From NCBI GenBank assembly GCA_016191165.1, contig JACPPF010000018.1, positions 62,001 to 126,000 of the forward strand: a stretch of 64,000 nucleotides of DNA, given 5' to 3'. Below are positions 23,192 through 50,234 of this stretch, piece after piece. The notes below the pieces were generated by a model. It saw only the letters and a list, made by a program, of their open reading frames with translations. It was not told the origin of the DNA and searched no databases. A program made the position numbers and the translations under genes. The stretch's first letter is position 1. Each line of letters starts with the position of its first letter. This DNA comes from Planctomycetota bacterium. Its GTDB lineage: Bacteria > Planctomycetota > Planctomycetia > Gemmatales > Gemmataceae.

Positions 23192-24142
23192 CTATTCGGA
23201 TTTCTTCGCCCGCCAGACCTCCCGGCACGCCAGCGGAAAGTCCGTCAACAGCGCATCGACGCCGACTTCGCGAGCCCGGCGCCAGTTCGCTGGCTCATTG
23301 CCGGCCACCAGCTTACCGACGAGGAAGACGCGCTTGCCCATGTCGTGGATCGTCTTCACTTGCTCGGCGGTCGGGATGAAACGCACGTAAATCCAGTCGG
23401 CGTTCTTTTCCGCCAGCGCCTTCGGCAGGTCTTCGCTTTTGTTCGCCAGCACCGCGATCGGCGTTTTCGCATCGGCCGCCTTCAATTTCGCGCGCAACTT
23501 CGGATCCTCGATGGCCAGGCCAATGCACATCACCTGAGGCAAGACGCCATGCTTCTTGGCAAGCGCGACGACCTCGCCCGCGAGCGTTTCGTCTTCAACT
23601 TTGATGTCGAGGCAGACGAGCCCCGTCGCTTGCGCTCCGGGCTGGTGATTTGCTTTCATGAGCGCGAACACAGCCTCCAGCGTTGGTACGCGTTCCGCTT
23701 TGAACTCGGGTGCGAACCAACCACCCGCGTCGAGCCGCTGCAACTCTGCCAGCGTGAAGTCGGCGACCTTGCCTTTGCCGTTGGTGGTGCGCTTCACGTC
23801 GTCATCGTGAACGCAGACGAGCACGCCATCCTTGGTGCGGCGAATGTCCAGCTCGAAGCCAAGACGCAGGTTGATGCACGCTGAAAACCCCGCGCGCGTG
23901 TTCTCAGGCGCGTGCCGCATCAGGCCGCGGTGTCCGACAAGACGCGGCGCTTGGGCGCGGGCGGGCGAAATCGAGATGGCGATTCCTAACGCGGCCAAGC
24001 CGCAAAGTAGACCGCTCACTCCGCGAGCGGTTCCGTCTCGCGGAGCGAGACGACTACTTTCCAGCTTCTCCGCGGCTTGCGGAGAAATTCCGAGGCAAGA
24101 GTCTATGAATGCAAGAAACAGTAAATGGTTTCGCGAGGTCAT
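23192..24142 (-). CDS. Glycerophosphodiester phosphodiesterase (secreted)
   Basis: A 316-aa GDPD-family TIM-barrel enzyme hydrolysing glycerophosphodiesters to glycerol-3-phosphate and an alcohol. The catalytic block LVGHRGLMRHAPENTRAGF supplies the HR and EN pairs; GFELDIRRTKDGVLVCVHDD supplies E-x-D and HD; LVCLDIKVED gives the downstream acid/lysine. ATG 24142 has ggag five bases upstream. The signal peptide is interrupted by repeat-derived sequence (about residues 18-52), and a second repeat word adds HQPGAQATG near residue 168. It sits between two toxin-antitoxin modules. Confidence 0.88.
   Translation of the reverse strand: MTSRNHLLFLAFIDSCLGISPQAAEKLESSRLAPRDGTARGVSGLLCGLAALGIAISISPARAQAPRLVGHRGLMRHAPENTRAGFSACINLRLGFELDIRRTKDGVLVCVHDDDVKRTTNGKGKVADFTLAELQRLDAGGWFAPEFKAERVPTLEAVFALMKANHQPGAQATGLVCLDIKVEDETLAGEVVALAKKHGVLPQVMCIGLAIEDPKLRAKLKAADAKTPIAVLANKSEDLPKALAEKNADWIYVRFIPTAEQVKTIHDMGKRVFLVGKLVAGNEPANWRRAREVGVDALLTDFPLACREVWRAKKSE
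23621..23646 (-). repeat. Half-palindrome word inside the phosphodiesterase gene
   Basis: ccccgtcgcttgcgctccgg and the following gctggt are identical to one arm of the intergenic palindrome at 50023-50048. On the coding strand it yields QPGAQATG, placed between family strands. The reading frame is intact. Confidence 0.8.
23986..24084 (-). repeat. Palindromic repeat inserted in the phosphodiesterase signal peptide
   Basis: The core runs from aaagtag (24004) to ctacttt (24060), with gctcactccgcgagcgg facing tctcgcggagcgagacg in imperfect inversion. It is framed by ggccaagccgca on the left and ccgcggcttgcgg on the right. Translated, it gives roughly SPQAAEKLESSRLAPRDG and the residues after it, splitting MTSRNHLLFLAFIDS from LAALGIAISISPARAQ. 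Confidence 0.75.
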
Positions 24143-30182: not shown

Positions 30183-30218
30183 CGCTCGCCTGGCGCCAGG
30201 CGGACTGGGCCAAGTTTC

Positions 30219-30318
30219 GGTGGTGGTACCGTTTGCCGTAGGTCAGGCTTTCCAGCCTGACATTTCGCGGCTGCTGTCAGGCAAGAATGCCTGACCTACC
30301 TCAGACGGTACCACTACC
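30219..30318. mobile_element. MITE-like element with 8-bp target duplication (copy 1)
   Basis: A 100-bp non-coding element. It starts ggtggtggtaccgt and ends acggtaccactacc, so the terminal inverted repeats match at 13 of 14 positions. It is flanked by caagtttc at 30211-30218 and again at 30319-30326, an exact 8-bp direct repeat. The interior carries the palindrome gtaggtcagg...cctgacctac (30238-30299), the same word as in the flavoprotein gene. It has no coding capacity, so movement would depend on a transposase elsewhere. Confidence 0.85.
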
Positions 30319-30431
30319 CAAGTTTCCCACTGCTCGCCGGATGCCGGGTTTGCATAATATCGCTATCCGCCACGGGGCGCCGCCGCGCGGGCGCTAGACG
30401 AATACATCAAACCACCACTTGGACCCATCCC

Positions 30432-32170: not shown

Positions 32171-32722
32171 CTCAGTAGTTCCAAGAATTAGCCACGGAAG
32201 AAACCCAGCGCGGCCAAGCCGCAACCAAATGTGACCGCCAAATCTTGGCCACGGATCGAACACAGATGAAACGCGGATAAAATCCAGCCACGGAATCACA
32301 CGGAAAAGCACAGAAGAATTCAAAAGTCTTACCTTTTTCCGTGTTTTTCCGTGTGATTCCGTGGCTAAAAATCTTCGCAGGGTGCGCAGTTTTGGATCAT
32401 TAGTAGAACGGAAAACTGGAGGTCACAATGACTTTTCCGCGTTCTTTCCGTGTGATTCCGTGGCTGATTTTTTCCGTGTTCGATCGCTGGCCAAGGCTTT
32501 ACAGTTTCATCTGGCTGCGGCTTGGCCGCGCTGGGTTTCTTCCTTGGTTGATTGAATTTTGGGGCCTGGTTCAAATGAAAGTCACAGCGAGCCGCCGGGC
32601 TTGTCCCGGCGGTGTGTCCCGATCCGCCTTGGTTCACCGCCGGGACAAGCCCGGCGGCTCGCGGATTGTTTGTTACCCTAAATTCAATCGATTTGAACCA
32701 GGCCAATTTTGGAACTACTGAG
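32171..32722. repeat. Cluster of nested inverted repeats
   Basis: The outermost pair is ctcagtagttccaa (32171-32184) and its inverse (32709-32722). Inside lies a long imperfect inverted repeat with arms near 32191-32310 and 32430-32547; the best part, cggaagaaacccagcgcggc onward, matches at about 36 of 39 bases. The word cacggaatcacacggaaa appears in both arms, with an extra inverted copy near 32343-32363. The element at 32563-32704 is nested at the right side. The stretch has no gene and fills most of the gap between the riboswitch and the NHL gene. Confidence 0.8.
32563..32704. mobile_element. MITE-like element with 8-bp target duplication (different ends)
   Basis: A 142-bp element with perfect 14-bp terminal inverted repeats: ggcctggttcaaat at 32563-32576 and its inverse at 32691-32704. 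It is flanked by aattttgg on both sides (32555-32562 and 32705-32712). The centre is a strong palindrome (gagccgccgggcttgtccc ... gggacaagcccggcggctc). A further copy of the end word, ggcctggttcaaa, stands alone near 35495. Confidence 0.88.
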
Positions 32723-43385: not shown

Positions 43386-43454
43386 ACCAGCCCCACGCGC
43401 AAGCGTGGGGGTTGGGCCGCCTCCCAAAACCCCCAGCTTGCGCTGGGGGCTGGT
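43386..43454. repeat. Intergenic palindrome with 'accagcccc...gcgcaagc' word
   Basis: accagccccacgcgcaagcg at 43386 faces an inverted copy at 43430-43454 (agcttgcgctgggggctggt) with a few mismatches; each arm also folds on itself. It shares the accagccc and gcaagc words with the palindromes at 47461 and 49983. The 285-bp gap it occupies holds no gene. Confidence 0.8.
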
Positions 43455-43564: not shown

Positions 43565-44368
43565 TCACGGAATCCGGAACGTCAGCGTTGTCCAGAACGA
43601 TTCCCACTCGTAAGCGGCCAGCTTGGGGCGCGTCATGTGCGTCAGGCGGATCGTCATCAGGCCGGTCTGCGCGATCGGAATCAGGGCTTCGCCCTTGGCG
43701 TCGGTGCGGACGTAGCCGATGGGTGTGTCGCCGTCGCCGGGCCGCTGCCAGCCCAGGTTGGCGCGGGCGAGGGGTTTCTTCTGAAAGAGAACCCGAACCC
43801 GCAGCGTCGCGCCGATCTTCGCGTCGAACGGATTCTGCATCGGCACGATTTGCAACGGCAGGTCCAGCACTTTGCCCCAATCTCCCGTCTTGCTCGCTCC
43901 CACGGCGATCACAGCGGTCGGCGACTTGCTATAGCGCTCCTTCGCGGGCTGGTTTAACGTTTTCTCTTTGGCGCGGAGCCGATAGATGTGCGGCAACCCG
44001 TCCGTGACGAGGTAGTCGTTGAAGCGATCGGCATCGAGTTCGAGCACCTTGGGCGTGGTTTGCACGGCGAGGAGGTGAATGCCGGGGACACTTGGTTCGA
44101 ATTCCAGAAACGAGACCAGGCCTTTCTTACCCGCTGAACTGAGCGGCAAAGTCGCGCCGTCGGGTCCGAGGACGAATTTGCGCGGATACCGGTCCGTCGC
44201 CGACGCGAACACGCTGACGGGAAAGTCCATGCCGACACTTGCGGCGATTTGTATCTTTTGCTTGGGTTCGGCCTTGCCGGGGGGAACGAGCCAAAGGTCA
44301 TGGCCTGCCGATTTGAGCGCAAAAAGAAAAGCACACAGAACCACGGCGGTAAAGTTGCGGCATCCCAT
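43565..44368 (-). CDS. DUF4198 (NikM-like) secreted protein
   Basis: A 267-aa protein with signal peptide FTAVVLCAFLFALKSAG followed by HDLWLVPPGKAEPKQKI, the HDxW start of DUF4198 proteins, where the histidine can bind a metal after signal cleavage. The beta-rich middle ends with LRVRVLFQKKPLARANLGWQ and YVRTDAKGEALIPIAQTGL. Members occur with metal transporters, but none is near. ATG 44368 has ggag upstream. Confidence 0.82.
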   Translation of the reverse strand: MGCRNFTAVVLCAFLFALKSAGHDLWLVPPGKAEPKQKIQIAASVGMDFPVSVFASATDRYPRKFVLGPDGATLPLSSAGKKGLVSFLEFEPSVPGIHLLAVQTTPKVLELDADRFNDYLVTDGLPHIYRLRAKEKTLNQPAKERYSKSPTAVIAVGASKTGDWGKVLDLPLQIVPMQNPFDAKIGATLRVRVLFQKKPLARANLGWQRPGDGDTPIGYVRTDAKGEALIPIAQTGLMTIRLTHMTRPKLAAYEWESFWTTLTFRIP

Positions 44369-44402
44369 ATATAAACTCCGGCGCTGGTCCGATGTTGTTT
44401 CG

Positions 44403-44503
44403 GTGGTGTCTCACTTTGCTTTGGCGCTTGGTAGACCTCACGCTCCGCGTGAGGAATTCCTCACGCGGAGCGTGAGGTCTACCATCAAACTGAGACACTA
44501 CCG
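44403..44503. mobile_element. MITE-like element with 8-bp target duplication (copy 2)
   Basis: A 101-bp element that begins ggtggtgtctcac and ends ctgagacactacc, so the inverted ends match at 11 of 13 positions. It is flanked by gttgtttc at 44395-44402 and at 44504-44511. The centre is a perfect 25-bp stem (44431-44484; ggtagacctcacgctccgcg on the left arm). The ends share GGTRGTG with the element at 30219, and both have 8-bp duplications ending in tttc. Confidence 0.88.
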
Positions 44504-44625
44504 TTGTTTCAAAACCCTTGGGCCTTGCCCAAAGTGGATGCGAAGAACGTCTCTCGTTGGCACTTCGGGCTAGGATTGAACCATTCCGTCGCTTGCGCGT
44601 CTGGCTAACTTGTCGGCATTGTAAG

Positions 44626-44706: not shown

Positions 44707-45285
44707 TTACATGTTGGCCCGTTTTTCCTCGACGAGGGTTTGAATTCGTTCACCCAGAAGGGCGACGTCGAACGGTTTCTTGAAGGCCTCATTGAAGCCG
44801 AAGTTCGAAAGCGATTCGAGGGCGGCCTCGTCCTCGCTGGCGAGGGCGACGATCAGCGTTTGTTCGTAGTCGGGCTTTTTGCGAAGATTGGAGGCGATTT
44901 GCAGCGCGTCCGAGCGGCCCATGGCCATGTCGATGACGATCGTGTCCGGATGGAAGCTCTCGGCCTGGATGCCGGCCTCGAATCCGCTGTTGGCCAGTTC
45001 GTACTTGAAATCCTCTCGTTCGGGCAGGATTTCCTTGATCCGGTCAATGAAGAGCTTGTCGGCCCCGATGACGAGAATCTTGTGCAGGCCCTCTTCCTCG
45101 AGCTCTCCCAGCGGCATCCCATGTTCCTTGAGGAACTTGATGAGATGCTCACGCGGGATGCGGCGATCCTGGCTGCCGGGGATGCGGTAGCCGCGCAATC
45201 GCCCCGAGTCGAACCATTTACTCACCGTCCGCGGCGCGACTTTACAGATTTTCGCGACCTGTCCGGTGGTAAAGACTTTTTTCAT
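44707..45285 (-). CDS. HTH (excisionase/BldC-like) + receiver-domain regulator
   Basis: A 192-aa protein with DNA-binding domain first: VFTTGQVAKICKVAPRTVSK then WFDSGRLRGYRIPGSQDRRI is an excisionase/MerR-like winged HTH. Residues about 68-190 form a receiver-like domain with ILVIGADK, the phospho-acceptor strand TIVIDMAMGRSDAL, LIVALASEDE and FKKPFDV. The usual acidic pair after strand 1 is reduced to one Asp, so phosphorylation is uncertain. ATG 45285 has ggag eight bases upstream. Confidence 0.83.
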   Translation of the reverse strand: MKKVFTTGQVAKICKVAPRTVSKWFDSGRLRGYRIPGSQDRRIPREHLIKFLKEHGMPLGELEEEGLHKILVIGADKLFIDRIKEILPEREDFKYELANSGFEAGIQAESFHPDTIVIDMAMGRSDALQIASNLRKKPDYEQTLIVALASEDEAALESLSNFGFNEAFKKPFDVALLGERIQTLVEEKRANM

Positions 45286-45886
45286 GGCAGGCACTCCGTA
45301 AATTTGTTTGTGCATCATCCCCAGCTTGGGAGGGGGACAACGGGGGGAACCACGCCCCACCCTGAGAAACGCGCGAAGTCTGGACGGACCGGGGGTTCCG
45401 CACAGGGCATCCTGCCGGGGGACAGTGCCATTGCATGGTTTCAGGGGGGACCAACTACTCGTGTCGGCAGGGGAGGTCCTTTCCTTCACCGCCAACTTCT
45501 TCCAATACCACGGTTGCTGGTAATATCGGCACGGAACGCAGCCAAGATGAGAAAAAGCCCACAATCTAAGAAACCTCTACACTTCGTCCTTTCCGCGCCA
45601 TCCCACTGTCTTGCCGAGGTGGTGCGCGGCGCTGGTTTTCGTGCCAACTTACCGGCCTTGCGTGGGGTGCATGGAGTGCCAGTCCTGCGAAGGCGGATGA
45701 TAGGTGACATGCAGCCCTTCTCGTCCGCTCCATTCTAAGGGCGCTGACAAGGGGACACGCGGTTTCTTTTTTTCTGGGAAGGGTTTTGAAAAACAGACTT
45801 GAATCACTGGCCCGCGCCAGCCACGCCATTCGAGCGTTTGGCCTTGCGGACACCGCAGTGCGTTGCAACGTTGAAATACGTCGCGG
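45286..45886. other. 600-bp region without a gene
   Basis: Leader of the HTH-receiver gene (reverse) and the tail end of the upstream transcript. It contains G-runs (45340-45356 and 45445-45450) and many small frames without domains. I see no riboswitch or repeat that I can name. Confidence 0.5.
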
Positions 45887-47460: not shown

Positions 47461-47527
47461 TATACCAGCCCGCAGCGTAAGCAAGGGCAATGTGAGCAGA
47501 CCCTTGCTTACGCTGCGGGCTGGTATA
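47461..47527. repeat. Perfect 27-bp palindrome
   Basis: The arms 47461-47487 and 47501-47527 are exact inverses around 13 bases. Each arm contains ataccagcccgcagcgtaag. The last 18 bases before the rpoZ stop separate it from coding sequence; it could act as a strong RNA hairpin at the end of the rpoZ transcript. Confidence 0.9.
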
Positions 47528-49793: not shown

Positions 49794-50234
49794 GACCAGA
49801 ACCTCAAGTGGAGGATTCGCCGCACATGTGCAAATCCTATTATAGGATGGGCAAATTTCTTTGGAAAGGTGTGTTTGCTTTCAACTCTGGTCCCTGGTCC
49901 CTGGGTGTTTGCCATTTCATGGGACGAATTAACCCCGGGATCTCGCCATGCTGATGGTTGGGCGAGCGGTCGGTCTTACCTTACCAGCCCGGAGCGCAAG
50001 CGACGGGGCAGATGTCCGCTGGCCCCGTCGCTTGCGCTCCGGGCTGGTGGGGATATTTTTTCCTGCCTCTCGCCTTGGGAAATGGTTTTCCGCGAGTCGT
50101 CCCGCGGCAGGCGCGGCCCAGGGGGCATCAGAAATCGCGAAATCGTAACAATCCATAGATCTTTCCAAATCTGTTCAATTTCACAGACCGCCGATGCCGA
50201 TTTATCCTGGGTAGTCCATCGTCCATGAGGTGCC
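49794..50234. other. Divergent intergenic region with a large palindrome
   Basis: Between secG (reverse) and the lipoprotein (forward). The region contains the palindrome at 49983-50048 and no gene. The promoters of both transcripts should lie on the two sides of the palindrome, but I do not see unambiguous boxes. Confidence 0.55.
49983..50048. repeat. Perfect 27-bp palindrome
   Basis: The arms 49983-50009 and 50022-50048 are exact inverses around a 12-base loop; each arm begins or ends with accagcccggagcgcaagcg or its inverse. One arm is identical to the word inside the phosphodiesterase gene at 23621-23646. Confidence 0.92.

Follow-up and report, generated by a model that had tools for sequence, protein, structure and literature searches.

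The 101-bp unit at 44402-44502 of the window (the whole stretch of 64,000 nucleotides that was analysed) is best explained, at a probability of roughly 0.86, as a MITE that carries the ends of an IS1-like DDE transposon, is moved by a transposase supplied in trans and holds a captured REPIN as its interior. The best-supported statement, put most cautiously, is that the unit is a selfish MITE that has captured a REPIN. Contig C122 of a Gemmataceae MAG of 7.23 Mb in 183 contigs, estimated to be 95% complete (hereafter G000), contains the window, and the copy counts given below rest on pattern searches of this genome together with fetched loci, from which duplicates were removed. In the mechanism that we propose, the 17-bp ends would be recognised by an IS1-family-like DDE transposase acting in trans, and 8 bp of target would be duplicated at each insertion. 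The interior would be a captured REPIN, a GTAG-tagged pair of REP hairpins such as are elsewhere linked to RAYT (HUH tyrosine) transposases; insertion or recombination may have brought it into the frame. The DDE ends would have spread the unit to intergenic sites, with the captured REPIN adding only a very stable hairpin, and the transposase would since have been lost from G000 or be missing from its assembly.

The element measures exactly 101 bp, starting ggtggtgtctcac and ending ctgagacactacc, and its parts are listed in Table 1. Read inwards, its right TIR has exactly the sequence that bounds IS1-like transposons of Gemmataceae and that forms the left end of an element on an Acidiphilium plasmid. 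An uninserted target site would read ccgatgttgtttcaaaac and contain gttgtttc once. When GGTRG...CYACC pairs lying 30-3000 bp apart and flanked by a 7-9-bp repeat were sought throughout the window, only two were returned, this element and the one that starts at 30219. The sequence-only reading had recognised a 101-bp unit between two gttgtttc copies, and both copies are indeed exact 8-bp target duplications (TSDs); it had found the right site, with coordinates (44395-44511) that are one base too high. Its observation that the duplications at both elements are 8 bp long and end in tttc also stands, while the equal length that it ascribed to the 30.2-kb element does not, that element being 100 bp long.

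Table 1. Features of the 101-bp element, its neighbouring genes and its family B relative, in window coordinates
Feature	Position	Strand	Description	Basis
Family B relative	30219-30318 (with TSDs 30211..30326)		100 bp; TSD caagtttc at 30211-30218 and 30319-30326	
REPIN of the family B relative	30238-30299		GTAGGTCAGGC type	
DUF4198 gene	43565..44368	-	start codon 33 bp from the element edge; element in the 5' region of the gene	
Left TSD copy	44394..44401	no strand	gttgtttc, 8 bp	sequence
Left TIR	44402..44418	+	GGTGGTGTCTCACTTTG, 17 bp; 15/17 positions identical to the IS1-like transposon end GGTAGTGTCTCAGTTTG	sequence comparison
Left spacer between TIR and REPIN	44419..44430	+	12 bp, constant in family A	family A copies
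REP 1	44431..44454	+	GTAGACCTCACGCTCCGCGTGAGG; GTAG tag and hairpin	
REP 2	44459..44482	-	REP 1 inverted, with an AATT linker between them; REP 1 and REP 2 form the REPIN	
Right TIR	44486..44502	-	inward reading GGTAGTGTCTCAGTTTG	
Right TSD copy	44503..44510	no strand	gttgtttc, 8 bp	sequence
HTH and response-regulator receiver gene	44707..45564	-	upstream of the element; strand shared with the DUF4198 gene	

Across G000, 44 strict copies were counted, falling into two families. Family A, with GGTRGTGTCTCA ends, has 33 members (23 of 101 bp, among them the element at 44402-44502, nine of 78 bp and one of 103 bp), and family B, with GGTRGTGGTAC ends, has 11 members of 100 bp, including the 30.2-kb element. 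Reversed patterns, searched in G000 as a control, gave 0 matches against 9 for the true pattern, and 7 against 67 where a single end was sought. Throughout the 101-, 100- and 78-bp forms the TIRs are 17-19 bp long and no transposase gene lies inside. The association of GGTRGTG ends with 8-bp duplications, which had been proposed as a genome-wide check, proved consistent: 28 of the strict copies have perfect 8-bp TSDs, nine have one mismatch and seven are worse, set against about 3 in 10,000 random places at which two 8-mers at equal spacing match by chance. Most 101-bp copies of family A are 95-100% identical to their consensus in an ungapped comparison (one copy, at 45%, was left as it is), and about half of the palindrome is missing from the 78-bp forms, which nevertheless have their own, mostly intact, TSDs; this implies either that the shorter form also moves or that the deletions came after insertion.

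The insertion sites show a partial target preference. Nine of the 28 perfect TSDs end in TTTC or start with GAAA, against 0.7% of flanking 8-mers, and TSDs are richer in A+T than their flanks (0.53 versus 0.43). Since the preference is seen in both orientations, it describes a weak dyad, GAA..TTC, and not a directional rule; the tttc preference suspected from the two elements in the window is thus genuine, albeit partial, and amounts to one half of this symmetric motif. Scored by codon usage, insertion sites look coding in 14% of cases and random places within those loci in 76%. The search for an exact empty site in sister species yielded none; the orthologous intergenic region of one of them (G062) lacks the element and has diverged at the target.

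The candidate mover comes from transposons that share these ends. The A-type end is present in 17 of the 95 genomes of the family, and GGTAGTGTCTCAGTTTG ends bound transposons of 2996 bp in G045, 7278 bp in G010 and 5492 bp in G009, each with a perfect 8-bp TSD (TCAATTCG, AAGAGAGC and GACTTTTT, respectively) and each encoding a transposase of about 288 aa, the gene in G009 being broken by IS701. Beyond the family, a 2634-bp element on the Acidiphilium plasmid has GGTAGTGTCTCAGTTTG ends or ends one base different (TSD AAGCCGAG), and in a Verrucomicrobia MAG a variant end bounds an element of 2540 bp (TSD TGAAACTG). Most relatives of the transposase at 50-100% identity carry GGTAGTGTCTCAGTTTG or a close variant where the contig extends far enough; in several at about 40% identity the letters that follow GGTAGTG differ, which indicates that the end sequence varies by transposase clade. 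Two further observations concern transposons with passenger genes. The G010 transposon (L085, 1990-5961) carries an AAA ATPase gene, downstream of which an apparent subtilisin-like ORF is split by an inserted transposase gene. A 1778-bp element (L094, 1986-3763) has matching ends, an 8-bp TSD with one mismatch and passenger ORFs, and no recognised transposase.

The transposase may lie near, and not squarely within, the IS1 family. Residues D69, D141 and E205 are invariant in 11 transposase proteins, and the protein P0001 matches the NCBIfam IS1 model NF033558 at E 3e-14, with 53.5 bits under a curated cut-off of 100. For the Pfam DDE_Tnp_IS1 model P0001 scores 23.0 against a cut-off of 24.1, and the proteins of L173 and L135 lie above it. 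Plasmid homologues, 50% identical, are annotated in RefSeq as IS1 family transposases, and a sequence search of the PDB found no relative. In L086, L085, L141 and L173 the transposase is a single ORF, lacking the two overlapping ORFs with programmed frameshift of classical IS1, and we therefore name it IS1-like, not IS1.

In the host itself, no homologue of P0001 was detected at E <= 1e-3 in the 183 contigs of the 95% complete assembly, and we infer mobilisation in G000 from the relatives. Long elements with matching ends in this genome amount to two single ends (L040 and L053) with no transposase ORF recognised nearby. A transposase of the IS1595 type, whose TSD is also 8 bp, was considered as the mover, and none was found in G000. 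Because the A ends match those of transposase-encoding transposons of other bacteria and no such gene was found in G000, the copies are regarded as MITEs. For family B, the end GGTAGTGGTACCGTTTGAA in G199 adjoins a C-terminal remnant of the same transposase class, beside which lies a complete relative of 2808 bp with an intact gene, GGTAGTGGTGCATTTTGAA ends and the TSD gggcaggg. The two IS1-like elements stand in tandem (L173, 6900-9730) with one 8-bp gggcaggg between them, as if the second had inserted at the exact edge of the first. In a phylum-scale search for an autonomous family B element, this locus was the only one with a transposase beside a related end, and there only as the remnant. 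Of the other candidates, L165 was unconvincing, and L147 (1501-2403) is a 903-bp B-type frame with matching ends, an 8-bp TSD and a passenger DUF6941 gene, in which no transposase was recognised.

The interiors of the elements have a different affiliation. Core B consists of two inverted copies of GTAGGTCAGGCnTTCnnGCCTGAC, a REP that occurs 283 times in G000, mostly unframed, as single copies, inverted pairs and arrays. Twelve B-type REPs surround a RAYT gene of 222 aa (L231, 727-1862, corresponding to about 5240-6380 of contig C14), which matches the REP-associated tyrosine transposase model NF047646 at E 4e-18, and together they form a complete REPtron. B-type REPs also lie beside RAYT genes in G064 (L293) and, as a single REP, in G065 (L299). 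Core A consists of GTAGACCTCACGCTCCGCGTGAGG twice, inverted, and is mostly framed in G000; when 15 leftover core A loci of this genome were read, about half were unframed. Elsewhere in the genus (G061, G064 and G065), 31 of the 36 A-type REPIN loci read are unframed, and the remaining five all belong to G061 and either have a frame or run into the end of a contig. Four of the G061 frames could be read completely, and each has an 8-bp TSD, perfect in three and with a single mismatch in the fourth. The genomes searched yielded no RAYT accompanied by unambiguous A-type REPs. The nearest candidate is a RAYT-like gene in G064 (L307), 7 bp downstream of which lies an A-like variant pair, a proximity that is no more than suggestive.

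Several other repeats were noted in the window. Three unframed B-type REPs (GTAGGTCAGGCTTTCCAGCCTGAC) form an array at 1449-1577, two direct and one inverted, and an unframed REPIN of the core A class with a different stem (GTAGACCGCTCACTCCGCGAGCGG...GTCTCGCGGAGCGAGACGACTAC) lies at 24007-24057. A further class of inverted repeat (ACCAGCCC...GGGCTGGT) occurs three times near the element (43386-43454, 47461-47527 and 49983-50048), with no GTAG tag and no frame seen. At 32587-32662 the arms of an inverted repeat, GCGAGCCGCCGGGCTTGTCCCGGCGGTG, match perfectly over 28 bp around a loop of 20 nt.

Frame and core are combined differently in different species. A-type ends surround core A in G000 and G061, and a B-like REPIN in G062 (perfect TSD AACCCGAA) and G066 (TSD with 3 mismatches); in more distant Gemmataceae, matching ends surround palindromes of other kinds, interiors that lack a REP, or passenger genes with no transposase recognised among them. 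Among the G000 copies read, core B never lies within A ends, nor core A within B ends, and the A and B ends of this genome have little in common beyond GGTRGTG and a few further positions. As judged from sequence, a frame with exchangeable payloads thus holds at the level of the genus, and in G000 each type of end keeps its own core. The idea of one mobile frame carrying different palindromic payloads, raised by the sequence-only reading, is accordingly borne out across species and gives way in G000 to two families with fixed cores. Its extension, that such a frame explains how hairpins in general spread in this genome, is contradicted by the counts, with roughly 22-32 of the 283 B-type REPs inside frames and the rest unframed, near the RAYT or in arrays.

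Within the explanation by a MITE with a captured REPIN, the order of events may be read in two ways. We lean slightly towards an IS1-like transposon having been reduced by deletion to a MITE before a REPIN was inserted into it, over two transposon ends having closed around an existing REPIN. REP-free small frames of 70-80 bp exist in relatives, and the left and right spacing between frame and REPIN is nearly equal in G000 (29/20 bp) and G061 (28/21 bp), which fits a single capture before the species split. At L185 one B-like end adjoins a REPIN whose linker differs, which points the other way, or to decay. A broader version of the same explanation, possible and decidedly tentative, is a dual-system element, in which IS1-type ends repeatedly capture the REPINs of RAYTs in Gemmataceae and the hairpin moves either as a bare REPIN, by HUH single-strand transposition, or as a framed MITE, by DDE double-strand transposition. 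Under this reading framed copies may seed tandem REP arrays. Such arrays are found at four loci of G000 (L222-L225, on contigs C56, C61, C33 and C37), and their linkers, GGGAA and TTCACC, resemble collapsed TIR edges of family B, so that these arrays may derive from framed copies.

A functional reading would have the frame repeatedly capture REPINs as advantageous cargo, for example as terminators or stabilisers of transcripts, with the elements being domesticated regulatory units under selection beside genes. As RNA, the element folds very stably (-75.6 kcal/mol, z -14), and several independent REP-like cores are found in one type of frame. From its place just before the start codon of the DUF4198 gene, downstream of the HTH and response-regulator gene, we conjecture that the element might serve as a terminator or as a leader hairpin. 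The intergenic bias of the insertion sites would fit such a function, but it would also follow from the purging of gene-disrupting insertions; the identity or near-identity of many copies fits recent spread over selected function, and a search of the element against Rfam gave no family above its cut-off. We regard domestication as unlikely.

Far less probable still is that a RAYT moves the entire unit as one long REPIN; the TIR-like flanks would then be no more than an extension of the palindrome, or a target that the RAYT prefers, as for the GTAG dimers in the long palindromes of Anabaena variabilis. The cores are REPINs, a RAYT flanked by the B-type REP is present in G000, and REP dimers within longer palindromes have been reported, in the portion of the source available here, without a transposase or TSD (PMC3733652). 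Against this stand the 8-bp TSDs, exact or with one mismatch, at the outer ends of 37 of the 44 copies, the identical ends of transposons that encode DDE transposases, and the existence of REP-free frames. Duplications of 8 bp of target are, to our knowledge, not expected from HUH single-strand transposition. A chance palindrome is ruled out by the TSDs, the copy number and the z-score of the fold.

The MITE with a captured REPIN shares features with several described systems and coincides with none of them. With the bacterial IS MITEs RUP, Nemis/Correia, ERIC and Nezha, which are listed in PMC3733652, it has in common a non-coding length of 70-300 bp, TIRs, TSDs, intergenic locations and movement in trans by a TIR-recognising transposase; unlike these, it has IS1-like ends with an 8-bp TSD and an interior that consists wholly of a REPIN from another mobile family. 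The autonomous partner in the same genome that is usual for MITEs, and not strictly defining of them, was not found in G000. REPINs are REP doublets that are probably moved by RAYTs, according to Bertels and Rainey (PMC3116915), and GTAG REPs have been described in Planctomycetes by Di Nocera et al. (PMC3733652). Like the GTAG REPs and REPINs associated with RAYTs in these two sources, the core places two GTAG-tagged hairpins in inverted orientation, and the B-type occurs in many copies, in arrays and around a RAYT. Plain REPINs, which are not reported to have TSDs, differ from the REPIN described here, which lies within DDE-transposon TIRs and 8-bp TSDs. Further parallels are Anabaena variabilis GTAG-15 and Halothiobacillus neapolitanus CGTC-1, in which, in the part of Di Nocera et al. 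used here, a REP dimer is central in a larger conserved palindrome and the REP-free palindrome was not found in the same genome (PMC3733652); no transposase or TSD is assigned to them there, whereas here the frame has been identified, and TSDs and transposase have been tested. The transposons that share the ends resemble the IS1 family and IS1-like transposons with passengers in their GGT-type ends, their 8-bp TSD (8-9 bp in IS1) and a DDE transposase with an N-terminal HTH, and depart from the IS1 family in having a single long ORF of about 288 aa, a length of 2.5-7.3 kb with other ORFs and an NCBIfam IS1 score under the cut-off. A search of the open-access literature found no description of REPINs inside IS1-type MITEs.

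The element joins MITEs and REPINs, which are usually studied separately, in a single unit, and a likely class of transposase can be named for it. It offers an explanation for REP dimers within larger palindromes, which the consulted portion of PMC3733652 notes and leaves unassigned, and allows frame and payload to be tracked separately across the species of one genus. In these bacteria, one mobile DNA would pick up and spread another, a REP hairpin pair carried within IS1-type ends.
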